Below are positions 2,812 to 62,050 of a DNA stretch of 64,000 nucleotides, piece by piece. The position numbers were made by a program, and so were the translations under genes. The first letter of the stretch is position 1. Each line of letters begins with the position of its first letter. The DNA comes from Deltaproteobacteria bacterium. Lineage in GTDB: Bacteria; Desulfobacterota; Binatia; DP-6. Location: NCBI GenBank assembly GCA_005879795.1, contig VBKJ01000129.1, positions 65,931 to 129,930 on the forward strand, written 5' to 3'. The notes beneath the pieces were generated by a model. The model saw only the letters and a list, made by a program, of their open reading frames with translations, was not told the DNA's origin and searched no databases.

Positions 2812-3999
2812 ATGAGCACGTTGGCAACGGCGACGGTCCTCGGGTTCTCGATCCTCGGTGCCTCGATGCTGAGCGTCGAGCTGGGCATCTCGGTCGCGAT
2901 CATCGAGATCACGCTCGGCGTGGTCGCCGGGAATTTCTTCGGCGTGACCACGACACCCTGGATCGACTTCCTCGCCTCGTTCGGCGGGATCCTCCTGACG
3001 TTTCTCGCCGGTGCGGAGGTCGATCCCCGCCTCATGCGCGAGAAGCTCAAGGAGTCGCTCCTGATCGGCGGCCTCTCCTTCCTTCTACCGTTCATCGGCG
3101 TGGGTCTCTTCGCGTATTGCGTGGCGGGCTGGGACCTCCGCCCGGCGGAGATCGCTGGCGTTGCGCTCTCCACGACCTCGCTCGCCGTCGTCTACGCCGT
3201 CCTCGTCGAGACCGGGCTCACGAATGCGGAGATCGGCAAGATCATCATGGCGGCGACCTTCGTGACCGATCTCGGGACCGCGGTGGCTCTCTCCGCGCTC
3301 TTCATCCAGCCCTCGGCTTACTTCGTCGTCTTCATGGCGGTTTCGGCCGTCTCGGTCGCGGGCATGGTCCTCCTGCAGCCCTGGTTCTTTGCGCGCTACG
3401 GCCGCAGGGTCATCGAACCGGAGATCAAGGGAGCGTTCGCGGTGCTCTTTCTGCTCATGTGGACAGCCGACCTGGCGAAGAGCCACGCCGTGCTCCCGGC
3501 GTTTCTGCTCGGCCTCGCGGTGGCGCGCATCTTCAAGGAGCACCCGGAGGAGCAGCGGCGCTTCCGGGTGGTCGCCTTCTCGCTCCTGACTCCGTTCTTC
3601 TTCTTCAAGGGAGGCTTGAACGTCAGCCTCGCGGCGCTGGCCGCGAGTCTCCCTCTCCTCATCGGCTTCTTCGTCGCGAAGGTCGCGCTCAAGTTCCTCG
3701 GTGTGCTGCCCGTCGCGCTCCGATACGTCCGGCCTCATGCGGCGTACACCACACTCCTCATGAGCACCGGGCTCACGTTCGGAACGATCTCGTCGCTCTA
3801 CGGACTCAATGCGGGGATCATCGATCGGACACAGTTCTCGGTGCTCGTCACGACGGTGATCCTCTCCGCCGTCGTGCCGACGTATCTCGCGCAACGCTTC
3901 TTCTCGCCGCCGGTCCATGCCCTCACCGTGGACGAGATGGCCGAGGTCGAGGACGAGGAGTTCGAGCCGCCAGCGGCGCCACGGCCGAAGCGCACGTAG
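2812..3999 (+). CDS. Cation:proton antiporter, CPA2/KefB-like (Na_H_Exchanger family)
   Basis: A 395-residue integral membrane protein with about 11-12 hydrophobic segments, starting with helices at residues ~5-45. Family signatures include 'ASFGGILLTFLAGAEVDPRLM' and the 'TFVTDLGTAVALSALF' helix, whose polar TDLGT core corresponds to the ion-binding region. The length matches the bare transport domain, with no TrkA-N/RCK regulatory domain fused at the C-terminus. The end is a short acidic and Pro-rich tail. The start is set by a strong Shine-Dalgarno (GAGGAGGAAGAG) just upstream. It probably exchanges Na+ or K+ for H+; the ion is not decidable. It is a single-gene unit. Confidence 0.85.
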   Translation: MSTLATATVLGFSILGASMLSVELGISVAIIEITLGVVAGNFFGVTTTPWIDFLASFGGILLTFLAGAEVDPRLMREKLKESLLIGGLSFLLPFIGVGLFAYCVAGWDLRPAEIAGVALSTTSLAVVYAVLVETGLTNAEIGKIIMAATFVTDLGTAVALSALFIQPSAYFVVFMAVSAVSVAGMVLLQPWFFARYGRRVIEPEIKGAFAVLFLLMWTADLAKSHAVLPAFLLGLAVARIFKEHPEEQRRFRVVAFSLLTPFFFFKGGLNVSLAALAASLPLLIGFFVAKVALKFLGVLPVALRYVRPHAAYTTLLMSTGLTFGTISSLYGLNAGIIDRTQFSVLVTTVILSAVVPTYLAQRFFSPPVHALTVDEMAEVEDEEFEPPAAPRPKRT

Positions 4000-31707: not shown

Positions 31708-31914
31708 GTGCGGCTCGTCTGCTTCGGTGACATTCACATGGCACTTCGAGCCATCGGACGGCTCGCGCCAGAGCTCTCGACCGCCGACGCAGCGATCCTC
31801 GTGGGCGACCTGACGCACTTCGGCGACCCGGCGGATGCCTTCCGGGGCATCGCAGCGGTGCGCGCGTTCTGCCCGCAGGTGCTCGCCGTCACCGGGAACC
31901 TCGACTTCGTTTGA
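31708..31914 (+). pseudogene. 5' fragment of a YfcE-like metallophosphoesterase gene
   Basis: A 68-residue frame equivalent to the first 66 residues of the intact gene at 34786-35457. It keeps 'LVCFGDIHMALRAI', 'GDLTHFGDPADAF' and 'VLAVTGNLD' but stops right after, so it lacks the histidine-rich metal motifs of the second half. The two copies share a 28-nt identical stretch at the start but differ widely elsewhere, so the duplication is old. It lies at the left border of the toxin-antitoxin/IS91 segment. A short stable peptide is possible; catalysis is not. Confidence 0.75.
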
Positions 31915-40388: not shown

Positions 40389-40754
40389 CTAGTTCCCGCC
40401 GTAGCGCGCGTCCGCCTGCAGTGCGAAGTGCTCCAGCAGGCGCTGCTCGGCCTGCCGGAAGGCGATCGCGCGCAGCATCTCCTGGGTCTGCTGGGCCAGC
40501 GGGACCGAGGCGATCACGCCGGCCAGCTCGGCGGGAGAGAGCTGAGCGATCGCCACCTCCATCGCATCGAGGACCCCGTCGGGCAGCTCCCCGATCTCCA
40601 CCTTCTGGGCGAGGGCGAGCGCGTGCTCGAAGCGGCTCGCGAACTGCTCCTTGGCTTCGGCTCGCTCCTCGGGAGTGCACACGACGTTCAGCTTCTTCGC
40701 GGCGGCGTCGAAGAGGCGATCGAAGGCTCGCAAAAGGGCTTCGCGTCCGGTCAT
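40389..40754 (-). CDS. Hypothetical helical protein
   Basis: A 121-residue, mostly alpha-helical soluble protein: 'REALLRAFDRLFDAAAKKLNVVCTPEERAEAKEQF', then repeated amphipathic helices with 'LPDGVLDAMEVAIAQLSPAELAGVIASVP'. No motif I recognise. The ATG at 40754 is preferred over a TTG three codons upstream. It is divergent from the small exported protein gene at 40840. Confidence 0.6.
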   Translation of the reverse strand: MTGREALLRAFDRLFDAAAKKLNVVCTPEERAEAKEQFASRFEHALALAQKVEIGELPDGVLDAMEVAIAQLSPAELAGVIASVPLAQQTQEMLRAIAFRQAEQRLLEHFALQADARYGGN

Positions 40755-40804
40755 TGGCGCCAAAGTCTAGCCACGCGGCGCCCGTCTGTCACCCCCTGCG
40801 CCGG

Positions 40805-40833
40805 TTGACTCCTCCGCGCGCACCGCCTAGCGT
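40805..40833 (+). promoter_or_regulatory. Leaderless-type promoter of the gene at 40840
   Basis: TTGACT (40805-40810), 17-nt spacer, TAGCGT (40828-40833), then 6 nt to the ATG at 40840. No room for a Shine-Dalgarno on the message. Confidence 0.5.
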
Positions 40834-40839
40834 CGATCG

Positions 40840-41082
40840 ATGCGCTTCGGCGCTTTAGGCTCGGCCAGCGCCGCCGCTGCGCTGCTGGTGGCGCTCGCCG
40901 GGCGGGCGCACGGCGATGACCCGGCCGCGCGGGCCGAGGCTGCCGCGGGACGGGCCGAGGCTGCCGCGGCGCGCGCGGAGTCGGCCGCCACCCGCACCGA
41001 GGAAGCGATCGAACGTCTCGAGCGCATCCTCGACCGAGCCGCGCCCCGCGAGGACCGCCGCCGCCGTTCCCGCCCGCGGTAG
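40840..41082 (+). CDS. Small exported Ala-zipper protein
   Basis: An 80-residue protein with a signal peptide (RFGALGSASAAAALLVALAGRAHG) and a mature region of heptad-like 'ARAEAAAGRAEAAAARAESAATRTEEAIERLERIL', ending in a strongly basic tail (REDRRRRSRPR). The composition and repeat echo the lipoprotein at 16987-17226, but the lipobox cysteine is absent. It would be a periplasmic coiled coil. It ends 37 nt before the ThDP enzyme gene. Confidence 0.6.
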   Translation: MRFGALGSASAAAALLVALAGRAHGDDPAARAEAAAGRAEAAAARAESAATRTEEAIERLERILDRAAPREDRRRRSRPR

Positions 41083-55048: not shown

Positions 55049-55078
55049 GCTGTACGGAGAAAGGCGTCGGCGAGTCAA
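55049..55078 (-). promoter_or_regulatory. Leaderless-type promoter of the zinc-ribbon-MEMO1 unit
   Basis: Minus strand: TTGACT (55078-55073), 18-nt spacer, TACAGC (55054-55049), then 7 nt to the ATG at 55041. Confidence 0.45.
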
Positions 55079-57471: not shown

Positions 57472-58497
57472 CTACAGCCGCCAGTACGGTGCCTGCGCGG
57501 CGCGCACCGGCGCTAGCACGCGCTCGGCCCGCCGGGCGTCGCCCGTCATCGGGGGCGGCGGGCGCTCCGCGCCGCGCATCGCCGCCAGTGTCGCGTCCAC
57601 GCCCTCGACGATCGCCGCGAGATCGTAGCCGCCCTCGAGCACGGCGGCGAGGCGGCCGCGGGCGCACTCCCCGGCGAGCTCGACGCAGGCGCGCGCCATC
57701 GCTGCGAAGCCCGCGGGCGTCACCTCCATCCCGCCCAGCGGATCGCGATGGTCGCAGTCGAAGCCGGCGGAGACGAGCACGAACCCGGGCGCGAACTGGC
57801 GCAGCACGGGAGCCACGACTTCCGTGAACGCCCGCACGTACTCCGCGTCCCCGAAGCCGGCGGGGAACGGCAGGTTGAGCGTCCGCCCCGCGCCCGGGCC
57901 GCGCCCCACCTCGTCGGCCGCTCCGGTCCCCGGGTAGTACGGATACTGGTGGGTCGAGACGTAGAGCACGTCGGGATCGCTCTCGAAGAGGTGTTGCGTG
58001 CCGTTGCCGTGATGCAGGTCCCAGTCGACGATCGCCACGCGCCCGACGCCCCGGGTCCTGAGCCACGCGGCCGCGAGCGCCACGTTGTTGAAGAGGCAGA
58101 AGCCCATGGCGCGCTCGCGCTCGGCGTGGTGCCCCGGCGGGCGCACGAGCGCGAAGCCGTTCTGCACCTGCCCCGCCAGCACCGCCTCGCACACGACGAG
58201 GAGGCTTCCCGCCGCGAGCCGCGCGGCCTCCCAGGAGTCGGCCGAAGTCGCGGTGTCCGGATCGAAGACGACGCGCGCGCGCCCGGCGCTCGCCGCCACG
58301 CGCTCGATGTGGGCCGCGGGATGGACGAGCGCGAGCTCCTCCTCGGCGGCGGCTCGCGCGCCCAGATGGACCAGGTCGCGCGCGTCGCCGAGATGGTCGA
58401 GCAGCACGCGCAGGCGGTCGGGCCGCTCGGGGTGGCCGCGCCCCGGATCGTGCGCCAGCATGCGCCGGTCGACGACGACCGCCGTACCGCCTGCCAT
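57472..58497 (-). CDS. Histone deacetylase-superfamily protein (AcuC/APAH-like)
   Basis: A 341-residue arginase/deacetylase-fold zinc hydrolase. The active-site blocks are 'VRPPGHHAERERAMGFCLFNNVALAA' (the His-His pair), 'VDWDLHHGNGTQHLF' (zinc Asp and His), 'SAGFDCDHRDPLGGMEV' (second zinc Asp) and 'LEGGYDLAA'. Bacterial members deacetylate acetyl-lysine (AcuC on acetyl-CoA synthetase) or acetylpolyamines. With several CoA ligases in the window, an AcuC-like role is attractive but unproven. The ATG follows a TATCGT -10 box by 8 nt, back to back with the tatB promoter. Confidence 0.88.
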   Translation of the reverse strand: MAGGTAVVVDRRMLAHDPGRGHPERPDRLRVLLDHLGDARDLVHLGARAAAEEELALVHPAAHIERVAASAGRARVVFDPDTATSADSWEAARLAAGSLLVVCEAVLAGQVQNGFALVRPPGHHAERERAMGFCLFNNVALAAAWLRTRGVGRVAIVDWDLHHGNGTQHLFESDPDVLYVSTHQYPYYPGTGAADEVGRGPGAGRTLNLPFPAGFGDAEYVRAFTEVVAPVLRQFAPGFVLVSAGFDCDHRDPLGGMEVTPAGFAAMARACVELAGECARGRLAAVLEGGYDLAAIVEGVDATLAAMRGAERPPPPMTGDARRAERVLAPVRAAQAPYWRL

Positions 58498-58505
58498 CGC
58501 TGCCG

Positions 58506-58534
58506 ACGATAGCAGAGGGGTCGCGCGCGGTGAA
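58506..58534 (-). promoter_or_regulatory. Leaderless-type promoter of the deacetylase gene
   Basis: Minus strand: TTCACC (58534-58529), 17-nt spacer, TATCGT (58511-58506), then 8 nt to the ATG at 58497. Its -35 box touches the -35 box of the tatB promoter. Confidence 0.5.
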
Positions 58535-58563
58535 TTGACACCACGCATCCTTTTCCTTACGCT
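58535..58563 (+). promoter_or_regulatory. Leaderless-type promoter of tatB-tatC
   Basis: TTGACA (58535-58540, consensus), 17-nt spacer, TACGCT (58558-58563), then 8 nt to the ATG at 58572. No Shine-Dalgarno is possible on such a message. Confidence 0.6.
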
Positions 58564-58571
58564 CGCGCGCG

Positions 58572-58844
58572 ATGTTCGGGATCGGGATGCCCGAGCTGCT
58601 CGTGATCCTGGTGGTCGCGCTCGTGGTGCTCGGTCCGAAGCGACTGCCGGAGGTGGCGCGCACGCTGGGCAAGACGCTGGCCGAGTTCCGCCGTCAGACC
58701 GCCGACATCGTGGACGAGTTCCAGGTCCAGGCGATGCTCGAGGACGAGCCGCCGCGCCGGCCGCCCGGGCCCGCGCCGGCCCCCGGCGCGACGCCGACCA
58801 CGGCCCCGGCCGCTCCTGCCAAGCCGGAATCGGGCAGCGCCTGA
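58572..58844 (+). CDS. tatB: Sec-independent translocase subunit TatB (TatA/B family)
   Basis: A 90-residue protein with one N-terminal helix ('MPELLVILVVALVVLGPKRLPEVARTLGK'), the FG-like hinge GPKRLPE, then an amphipathic helix ('LAEFRRQTADIVDEFQVQAML') and a Pro/Ala-rich tail. The Glu in the helix and the length favour TatB over TatA. It delivers folded proteins with twin-arginine signals, such as the amine oxidase at 4349-5821, to TatC, whose gene starts 7 nt on. Confidence 0.88.
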   Translation: MFGIGMPELLVILVVALVVLGPKRLPEVARTLGKTLAEFRRQTADIVDEFQVQAMLEDEPPRRPPGPAPAPGATPTTAPAAPAKPESGSA

Positions 58845-58851
58845 CCCGCCC

Positions 58852-59628
58852 GTGCCCGGCCGCGTGGGGCCAGAGCACGATGTGCGCATGCCCCTCACCG
58901 CGCACCTCGAGGAGCTGCGCTGGCGCATCATCCGCGTCCTGGTGGCGCTCGGGCTCGCCTTCGGCGTCTGCTACTGGTTCGCCGAGGCGCTCTTCGGGTT
59001 CCTGCTCCGCCCGCTCGCCGCGGTCCACCCCGACCAGGCGCTCGTCATCGGCACCGGCGTGACCGAGGCCTTCTTCACCAAGCTCAAGGTCTCGTTCATC
59101 GCCGCCGTCTTCCTGGCGAGCCCGATCGTCTTCTTCCAGGCCTGGCGCTTCGTGGCGCCCGGGCTCTACGACAGCGAGAGGCGCCTCGCCCTCCCCTTCG
59201 CGGGGGCGGCGTCGTTCTTCTTCGTGCTCGGCGCCTCGTTCTGTTACGGGCTCGTCTTCCCGGTCGGCTTCCGCTTCTTCCTCGCCGAATACGCGTCGAT
59301 AGGCGTGTCGCCCGAGATCCGCATCAGCGAGTACCTGACCTTCGCGAGCCGCATGCTGCTCGCCTTCGGCATCACCTTCGAGCTGCCGGTGGTGACCTTC
59401 TTCCTGGCGCGCGTGGGGCTGGTCACCCACCGGACGCTCCTCGGGACGTGGCGCTACGCGACCGTCGTCATCTTCATCGTGGCCGCCGCGCTGACGCCGG
59501 GCCCCGATGTCGCCTCCCAGCTCCTCATGGCCACGCCGCTCCTGGTGCTCTACTGGCTCAGCATCGGGATCGCGTGGCTCGTGGCGCGTCCCGCGCCGGC
59601 GGTGGTGGCGGCGCGGAGCGAGGGCTAG
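58852..59628 (+). CDS. tatC: Sec-independent translocase subunit TatC
   Basis: A 258-residue protein with six membrane helices. The family N-terminus is 'MPLTAHLEELRWRIIRVL', the periplasmic loop carries 'FFTKLKVSFIAAVFLASPIVFFQAWRFVAPGLY', and 'PDVASQLLMATPLLVLYWLSI' ends it. TatC recognises the RR motif and nucleates TatA assembly. The GTG at 58852 gives 12 extra residues before 'MPLTAHLEEL'; the ATG at 58888 is an equally good start. The stop TAG lies in an 11-bp palindrome. Confidence 0.93.
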   Translation: MPGRVGPEHDVRMPLTAHLEELRWRIIRVLVALGLAFGVCYWFAEALFGFLLRPLAAVHPDQALVIGTGVTEAFFTKLKVSFIAAVFLASPIVFFQAWRFVAPGLYDSERRLALPFAGAASFFFVLGASFCYGLVFPVGFRFFLAEYASIGVSPEIRISEYLTFASRMLLAFGITFELPVVTFFLARVGLVTHRTLLGTWRYATVVIFIVAAALTPGPDVASQLLMATPLLVLYWLSIGIAWLVARPAPAVVAARSEG

Positions 59629-60289: not shown

Positions 60290-61810
60290 TCAGAAGCTGT
60301 AGCGCGCCTGGAGCACCACCTCGTCGTTCTTGCGGAACTGTCCCAGGAGGGAGGCGCGCGGGCCGCCGATCGCGAGGTAGCCGAGGCGCACGCGGAGGTC
60401 GTCGGTCACGAGGTAGGAGGCGCGCGGGAAGACGAACCACGCCTGACGCTCGATGGCGTACGTGCCCTTCACCTCGAGCTCGAGCCGCTCGGCGAGGAGC
60501 TTCTTGCGGAGCGTGGCGGAAGGGCGCGTCTCGGGGTCGTGGATCAGGAGACGCGGCGCGCGGTCGAGGAGGGCGATCTGGTTCAGCTGCACGAGCGGCG
60601 TGAAACCGCCGATCAGGTAGTCCGCGCCGATCCCCCACTCGACGGCGTCGAGGGTCGGGAAGAGGTCGCCGATCGGCACGGCGGCGCGCCCGCGGCGCCG
60701 CAGCTGCTGGGCGACACGCTTCACCGCCGCGGGCGCCGTCGCCTGGCGGACGAGGTCGCTCGCCAGGCGGAGGTAGGGGCGGTCGTCGAGGTACGCCGCT
60801 TCGGCGCGGACCGTGAAGCCGCCGAACGCCCTCGACACGTCCGCGCCCGTCATGTGGATCACGTCGTGCGCCTGGCGGAGGAAGCTCACGGCGCGCAGGC
60901 GGAAGGGCGCCATCGACACGAGCCGGATCTCGGAACGCAGGTCGGCATCGGGGCCGGTCTCGGGACCGGTGTAGTGGTAGAGGTCCCAGTCGCTCTCGCG
61001 CCAGGTGCCGCCCAGGCGCAGCGCGATGCCGCCCGCGTCGAGCCGGCGGGGCGGGCGGTGATCGAGTGTCCCGAACTTGATCGGGATGATGAGGTCGCCG
61101 GGCAGCGGGACGCCGAGGGCGCGCGAGGCGAGAGCCCGCGGCACCACCACCGCAGGCGGCGGCACGGTGCTGGCCGGGAACCAGCGCTCCTCGCGCAGCG
61201 CGAGCCGCGGCGGCACGGCGAGCGGTACGTAGACGAGCGTCGCGCGCAGCTCCGAGAGGGCGAGGCGCGGCAGGTCGGGGAGGTAGTAGGTCCCGGCGAG
61301 CGCGGGAATGCCGATCTTGCGCTCCTCGAAGTCCTCGACCAGCGGGTCGTGGAAATCCCGCGGATTGACGATGTCGGTCGGCGGGATACCGTCGAGCTTG
61401 CCCCACGCGAGCTTCTGGATGCCGAGGCGCAGGTCCGCGCGCCGGAGGTGCACGTCGACCCAGGCCTCGCTCGCCTCGAGAGACGGCGAGCGGTTCTGGA
61501 ACTCGTGGTCGAAGTCGTAGACCCCCGGATGCCCGCCCTCGAACGGCCCGCCGGCGCGCGCGCGTAGATCCAGGCGAGCGCCCAGCCAGGGCGCGGCGCG
61601 GCCGTCCAGGTGGAGATCGAGGAGCGCCGCCGGGCGCTCGCGCGGCCCGCCCTCGGTCTCGGCGACGGCGAGCCCGTCGAGGTAGCCGCCCGCGACCACG
61701 CGCCCGCCCGTCCCCGGCACCTCGACCGCGCCGGCGGCGCCGACCACCAGGAGCAGACCGAGCGCCGCAACTGCGTTGAACGGCAGAAACCGCCTCTCTA
61801 TACTCCGCAC
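60290..61810 (-). CDS. Outer-membrane beta-barrel protein (DUF1302/porin-like)
   Basis: A 506-residue exported protein. The GTG start gives a signal peptide ('FLPFNAVAALGLLLVVGAAGAVEV'). The body alternates short beta-strands of amphipathic type. A conserved-looking block 'DLRLGIQKLAWGKLDGIPPTDIVNPRDFHDPL' resembles DUF1302-type barrels ('R.G.Q...WG......VNP.D'). The C-terminus ends in an aromatic residue preceded by a beta pattern ('DEVVLQARYSF'), the usual outer-membrane assembly signal. Cargo is unknown. Its start codon abuts that of the divergent gene at 61811, so the promoter must lie in that gene. Confidence 0.72.
   Translation of the reverse strand: MRSIERRFLPFNAVAALGLLLVVGAAGAVEVPGTGGRVVAGGYLDGLAVAETEGGPRERPAALLDLHLDGRAAPWLGARLDLRARAGGPFEGGHPGVYDFDHEFQNRSPSLEASEAWVDVHLRRADLRLGIQKLAWGKLDGIPPTDIVNPRDFHDPLVEDFEERKIGIPALAGTYYLPDLPRLALSELRATLVYVPLAVPPRLALREERWFPASTVPPPAVVVPRALASRALGVPLPGDLIIPIKFGTLDHRPPRRLDAGGIALRLGGTWRESDWDLYHYTGPETGPDADLRSEIRLVSMAPFRLRAVSFLRQAHDVIHMTGADVSRAFGGFTVRAEAAYLDDRPYLRLASDLVRQATAPAAVKRVAQQLRRRGRAAVPIGDLFPTLDAVEWGIGADYLIGGFTPLVQLNQIALLDRAPRLLIHDPETRPSATLRKKLLAERLELEVKGTYAIERQAWFVFPRASYLVTDDLRVRLGYLAIGGPRASLLGQFRKNDEVVLQARYSF
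61776..61804 (+). promoter_or_regulatory. Leaderless-type promoter of the gene at 61811
   Basis: TTGAAC (61776-61781), 17-nt spacer, TATACT (61799-61804), then 6 nt to the ATG, so the message would start at the A of the start codon. The whole promoter lies within the first codons of the outer-membrane gene on the other strand. Confidence 0.65.
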
Positions 61811-62050
61811 ATGGACGAGCGCGCGCTGGAGAAGGACCTCGACCGCCAGATCGTGGCCACCCACCGCCGCCTCGTGAAGGCGATGGACGGGCGGCTCGGC
61901 AACATGAGCGCCGACAGCAAGGAGCGCTACTTCGCCGTCCTCTCGACGCTCGTCGCCAAGCTCGAGACCGCCGAGAAGCCGATGCGCGAGATCATGCACG
62001 AGATGATGACCGAGGCGGCGAGCCTGATCCTGCAGGAGCTGCAGGGCTAG
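61811..62050 (+). CDS. Small helical protein of unknown function
   Basis: A 79-residue, wholly alpha-helical acidic/basic protein: 'LEKDLDRQIVATHRRLVKAMDGRLGNMSADSKERYFAVLSTLVAKLETAEKPMREIMHEMMTEAASLILQEL' (read in parts). It could form a coiled coil. No known family. The promoter geometry predicts a leaderless mRNA. It converges on the HAD gene. Confidence 0.65.
   Translation: MDERALEKDLDRQIVATHRRLVKAMDGRLGNMSADSKERYFAVLSTLVAKLETAEKPMREIMHEMMTEAASLILQELQG

Follow-up and report, generated by a model that had tools for sequence, protein, structure and literature searches.

The window analysed here, a stretch of 64,000 nucleotides of contig VBKJ01000129.1, belongs to a genome of Candidatus Binatota/Binatia (4.1 Mb in 280 contigs, 72% GC), and a search with its tatC found relatives mostly in Candidatus Binatia MAGs and in MAGs labelled Deltaproteobacteria, with a top identity of 76%. 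On the plus strand it carries the protein-export gene tatB together with tatC, and on the minus strand a gene for a histone-deacetylase-family protein (Table 1). The deacetylase gene starts at 58497 on the minus strand and tatB at 58572 on the plus strand, both with ATG; the gap between them, positions 58498-58571, comprises the 74 bp reported in the original prediction. The TatB N-terminus reads MFGIG, and its first codon is ATG in all relatives read except one, which uses TTG.

Table 1. Genes and promoter elements of the window, with positions counted from its first nucleotide.
Feature	Position	Strand	Remarks
tatB	58572..58844	+	Pfam TatA_B_E; first codon at predicted mRNA 5' end
tatC	58888..59628	+	Pfam TatC; start from gene model; in-frame GTG at 58852
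histone-deacetylase-family protein	57472..58497	-	Pfam Hist_deacetyl
-35 box TTGACA of tatB	58535..58540	+	ATTGAC invariant in family alignment
-10 box TACGCT of tatB	58558..58563	+	17 nt after -35, 8 nt ahead of ATG
proposed -35 TTCACC of deacetylase	58529..58534	-	abuts tatB -35; present, not conserved in relatives
extended -10 TGCTATCGT of deacetylase	58506..58514	-	8 nt ahead of ATG; same or close form at same place in family
-10 hexamer TATCGT of deacetylase	58511-58506	-	17-nt spacer from TTCACC, 8 nt to ATG
leaderless-type promoter TTGAAC-17-TATACT of 61811 gene	61776..61804	+	6 nt to ATG; score 17.3
leaderless-type promoter TTGACT-18-TACAGC of 55041 gene	55049..55078	-	7 nt to ATG; score 10.0
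TTGACT-17-TAGCGT of 80-aa ORF 40840-41082	40805..40833	+	6 nt to ORF; score 13.0
-10 TAGACT of divergent gene 40389-40754	40764..40769	-	9 nt to ATG; score 13.6; absent from the original list

Both hexamer pairs of this gap, their 17-nt spacers, their 8-nt distances to the ATG and the touching -35 hexamers can be read directly from the sequence, as had been claimed. In the family alignment the region upstream of tatB contains two conserved blocks, ATTGAC and TA(C/G)(G/C)CTC, which are separated by a 17-nt spacer of variable sequence, and TA(C/G)(G/C)CT stands 7-9 nt ahead of the tatB ATG in every family member read. On the opposite strand an extended -10 element of the deacetylase gene resembling TGCTATCGT is conserved. 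The assignment of TTCACC/TATCGT to the deacetylase holds in so far as both hexamers are present, but it is the extended -10 that is kept in the family, and TTCACC was rejected as a conserved -35 box since it shows no conservation in relatives.

The original prediction cited eight starts of the window as sharing this architecture. Scored with a bipartite sigma70 matrix that was fixed from general knowledge rather than trained on the host genome, all eight reach 7.7-17.3, and scores as high are found at 0.01-1.1% of 55,147 random intergenic positions of the same genome; six of the eight fall within the top 0.3%, and 49246 is the weakest. Of the eight, only tatB, the deacetylase, 40840 and 61811 have TANNNT in its strict form, while the boxes at 31708 (TACAAG), 34786 (TAAAAC), 55041 (TACAGC) and 49246 (TAGACA) are looser and lack the final T. 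In six of seven family genomes the 61811 ortholog has TATACT 6-9 nt ahead of its ATG, and in the seventh a weaker TAGAAG; the promoter-to-ATG distance is kept in spite of N-termini that vary by up to 8 codons, so that in this gene promoter and start codon shift together. A similar promoter precedes the ATG of the 55041 gene by 7-10 nt in four genomes, and ortholog N-termini support the start codons of tatB, the deacetylase, 61811 and 55041.

Some of these genes deserve a brief description. The gene at 61811-62050, which has the strongest leaderless-type promoter of the window, encodes a 79-aa protein without a Pfam match and was found in all 7 family genomes searched. The ORFs at 31708 and 34786 lie near each other on the plus strand and have almost identical 5' ends (GTGCGRCTCGTCTGCTTCGGTGACATTCACATGG) and matches to metallophosphoesterase Pfam families; the former, with only 68 aa, resembles a truncated duplicate. 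A second divergent leaderless-type pair, with 85 bp between the genes, lies at 40754-40840. Its minus-strand gene (40389-40754) encodes a protein of 121 aa that matches no Pfam family; its plus-strand member (40840-41082), an ORF of 80 aa with a hydrophobic stretch at the N-terminus, was missed by the gene finder used here.

This gene finder is home-made, blind to upstream sequence and based on a 3-periodic fourth-order model with dynamic programming; it was run on 1.58 Mb of the host genome, and all genome-wide start codons given below are its calls, which are uncertain in a genome of 72% GC. An earlier codon-only gene finder was dropped because it fused the deacetylase with the tatBC region, as was an EM motif search, which converged on G+C-rich sequence. 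Of the 645 genes that have 40 nt or more free upstream, 47 have a TANNNT starting at -15 to -12, where other positions have about 2 each, and TTGAC has its peak at -41 to -35. With at least 60 nt free upstream (564 genes), a sigma70-type site whose -10 box starts at -15 to -12 is found in 79 cases versus 13.2 expected, an excess of about 12% (9-14%, depending on the threshold); promoter-like sites peak at this distance and at no other, with a modal -10 start of -14. In the same 564 genes strict TANNNT lies at -15 to -12 in 41, while a circular-shift null had a mean of 8.3 and a maximum of 19 in 2,000 shifts, and the predicted enrichment at gene starts is thereby confirmed. No -10 peak was seen at 3,621 non-start intergenic ATGs of the host genome or in the rhizobial replicon S. 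meliloti pSymB, and the same pipeline returned a peak in a small sample of Deinococcus plasmids, there with strict TANNNT at -12. Such a promoter occurs at only 2 of 430 genes closely following a co-directional neighbour. The exact pattern TTGACA-17-TANNNT-7-ATG has a single match in the host genome and is too strict for counting. Taken with the conserved boxes and ATG distances in relatives, the genome-wide peak and its clean controls give good support to the original view of leaderless-type promoters as a recurring architecture.

Genes with a near promoter also differ in their Shine-Dalgarno content: tetramers of this kind precede 9 of 82 such genes, which is near background, versus 101 of 435 others (p=0.012). 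For tatB across the class, a Shine-Dalgarno sequence is present in 0 of 16 loci in which the best-scoring -10 box is near (starting at -17 to -10) and in 15 of 20 loci with a distant promoter, counts that are not independent since all loci are related and some are near-identical copies. Promoter-ATG distance thus varies together with Shine-Dalgarno presence, which makes tatB a traceable case of a gene moving between initiation modes. Four tatB orthologs (L004, L005, L007 and L170) lack a Shine-Dalgarno sequence and have their strong promoter at -25 to -29; they represent a third state between leaderless and Shine-Dalgarno-led.

The boxes, their position peak, their conservation and the scarcity of Shine-Dalgarno sequences are seen in the DNA, and from them we infer promoter activity, the position of the transcription start and the use of a 5'-terminal start codon by the ribosome. 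In the reading we prefer, to which we assign a probability of roughly 0.85, sigma70-type promoters set the RNA start at the start codon or no more than about 3 nt away from it, and tatB, the deacetylase gene and about one in eight non-operon genes would yield leaderless or almost leaderless mRNAs whose translation proceeds without a Shine-Dalgarno sequence. RNA polymerase with the housekeeping sigma factor would bind the -35 and -10 boxes, in the case of the deacetylase mainly the extended -10, the RNA would begin at or just ahead of the start codon with a leader of 0-3 nt, and the ribosome would initiate on the 5'-terminal codon without a Shine-Dalgarno helix, as it does in known leaderless systems. 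With the usual spacing between -10 box and transcription start, most sites would have their 5' end at -3 to 0. The original wording that transcription should begin at the start codon is therefore too strict, since a modal -10 at -14 combined with ordinary promoter geometry predicts a 5' end 0-3 nt upstream of the ATG.

The peak at -14 rather than -12 leaves room for a leader of 1-3 nt, and it could also be taken to mean that the transcripts are not strictly leaderless and carry short leaders of 4-10 nt, set by a longer discriminator and read by an unrecognised translation route independent of Shine-Dalgarno sequences. The modal start of -12 in the small Deinococcus sample and the four tatB orthologs with a promoter at -25 to -29 would fit this explanation, which we nevertheless consider improbable, given that the spacing mentioned above places most 5' ends at -3 to 0. 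Less probable still, and only a slim chance in our estimate, is that the true start codons lie further downstream and that the boxes are ordinary promoters with normal leaders. Start-codon calling is uncertain at this GC content and tatB has an in-frame ATG at codon 6, but no Shine-Dalgarno sequence lies ahead of that codon, the Pfam domain begins at residue 4, the first codon is a start codon also in those relatives read that lack Met at residue 6, and the promoters of the 61811 orthologs stay tied to differing first codons. That the TA hexamers arise by chance from the nucleotide composition, from stop codons upstream or from the TA within extended Shine-Dalgarno sequences (TAAGGAGG) is scarcely credible and, taken over the whole genome, refuted. 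Sequences of the TAGGAGG type do account for part of the raw excess of TA dinucleotides at -13 to -12, but 51 sites versus 8.8 expected are left once Shine-Dalgarno-like TA has been discarded and only -10 boxes with a -35 box at a distance of 16-19 nt are counted, and both the circular-shift null and the conservation of the boxes contradict this explanation, although the individual weak sites 49246, 31708 and 34786 could be due to chance.

Leaderless-type promoters also appear to be spread beyond the host genome. In 118 genomes of the class the pattern TTGACN{17,19}TANNNT was counted 1654 times at 6-8 nt before an ATG versus 626 times at the control distance of 12-14 nt; the former count exceeds the latter in 105 of the 118 genomes, and the difference is significant in 12 of 16 families. 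The corresponding counts for a further 39 genomes of the phylum sample were 992 and 713. Direct promoter profiling of stretches from two further genomes, G092 (same family, 106 genes) and G214 (other family, 162 genes), yielded an excess of only about 1-2%, so that the leaderless share in other genomes is poorly measured, while the pattern-count ratios of both are above 3. Poor start calls in G092, in which GTG outnumbers ATG, may explain part of this weak excess.

The original prediction knew of no report of leaderless genes for a lineage like this one, which is overstated. In 2011 a survey of 953 bacterial genomes predicted them for 8 of the 33 delta-Proteobacteria genomes, at a mean of 15.8%, and for 3 of 3 Acidobacteria (PMC3160421), and a paper from 2021 quotes a figure of 21.6% of bacterial species with leaderless genes (PMC9581028). 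The lack of precedent holds no further than the phylum: leaderless genes, Shine-Dalgarno sequences and promoters all go unmentioned in a Binatota genome paper (PMC8262859), and in the open-licence literature we found no report of leaderless genes in Binatota and nothing relevant on leaderless genes in candidate phyla or on divergent leaderless promoters. The closest likeness is to the TA-led genes of the 2011 survey, which have TANNNT about 12 nt before the start, are strongest in high-GC genomes and account for about 10-20% of the genes of Acidobacteria and, in some delta-Proteobacteria, for about 6-21%, similar to the share in the host genome; the published table has no Binatota group (PMC3160421), and the modal position here is -14. 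In Deinococcus-Thermus the -10 box likewise lies directly ahead of the ORF (PMC12340547), but strict TANNNT is at -12 there and at -14 here, the predicted leaderless share is larger (35.9-46.1%; PMC3160421), and the architecture was tested by experiment there (PMC12340547) and is predicted from sequence here. Mycobacterium tuberculosis, whose leaderless transcriptome has been described (PMC3898074), resembles the present case in combining leadered and leaderless genes in a high-GC genome, with 5' ends that were mapped there and are predicted here. The proposed way of starting genes is thus a known one, and what is new is the sequence evidence for it in Binatota, which would extend leaderless gene expression to a phylum described as yet uncultured. 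Where start codons are called from Shine-Dalgarno sequences, some Binatota genes may consequently have been given wrong starts.

The arrangement of divergent genes shows a further regularity. In stretches of the host genome 169 divergent pairs have a mild spacing mode at 70-90 bp, with 26 pairs at 70-89 bp, 15 at 50-69 bp and 14 at 90-109 bp, and a score above 7 is reached by half of the starts at 70-79 bp, versus 6% of those beyond 250 bp. This spacing is about twice the roughly 37 nt needed per leaderless promoter. We tentatively suggest, as a possibility we hold to be rather unlikely to apply in full, that in high-GC Binatota two leaderless promoters whose -35 boxes touch or overlap form a minimal bidirectional unit, about 70-90 bp long, round which divergent genes are packed, and that within the class individual genes, tatB among them, changed repeatedly between the leaderless and the Shine-Dalgarno-led state while a recognisably similar promoter was kept. 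In several divergent pairs both genes have such a promoter, and in some of these the -35 boxes overlap or are palindromic; examples of divergent pairs are 58498-58571 of the window, L116 15127-15204 and L128 12153-12228.
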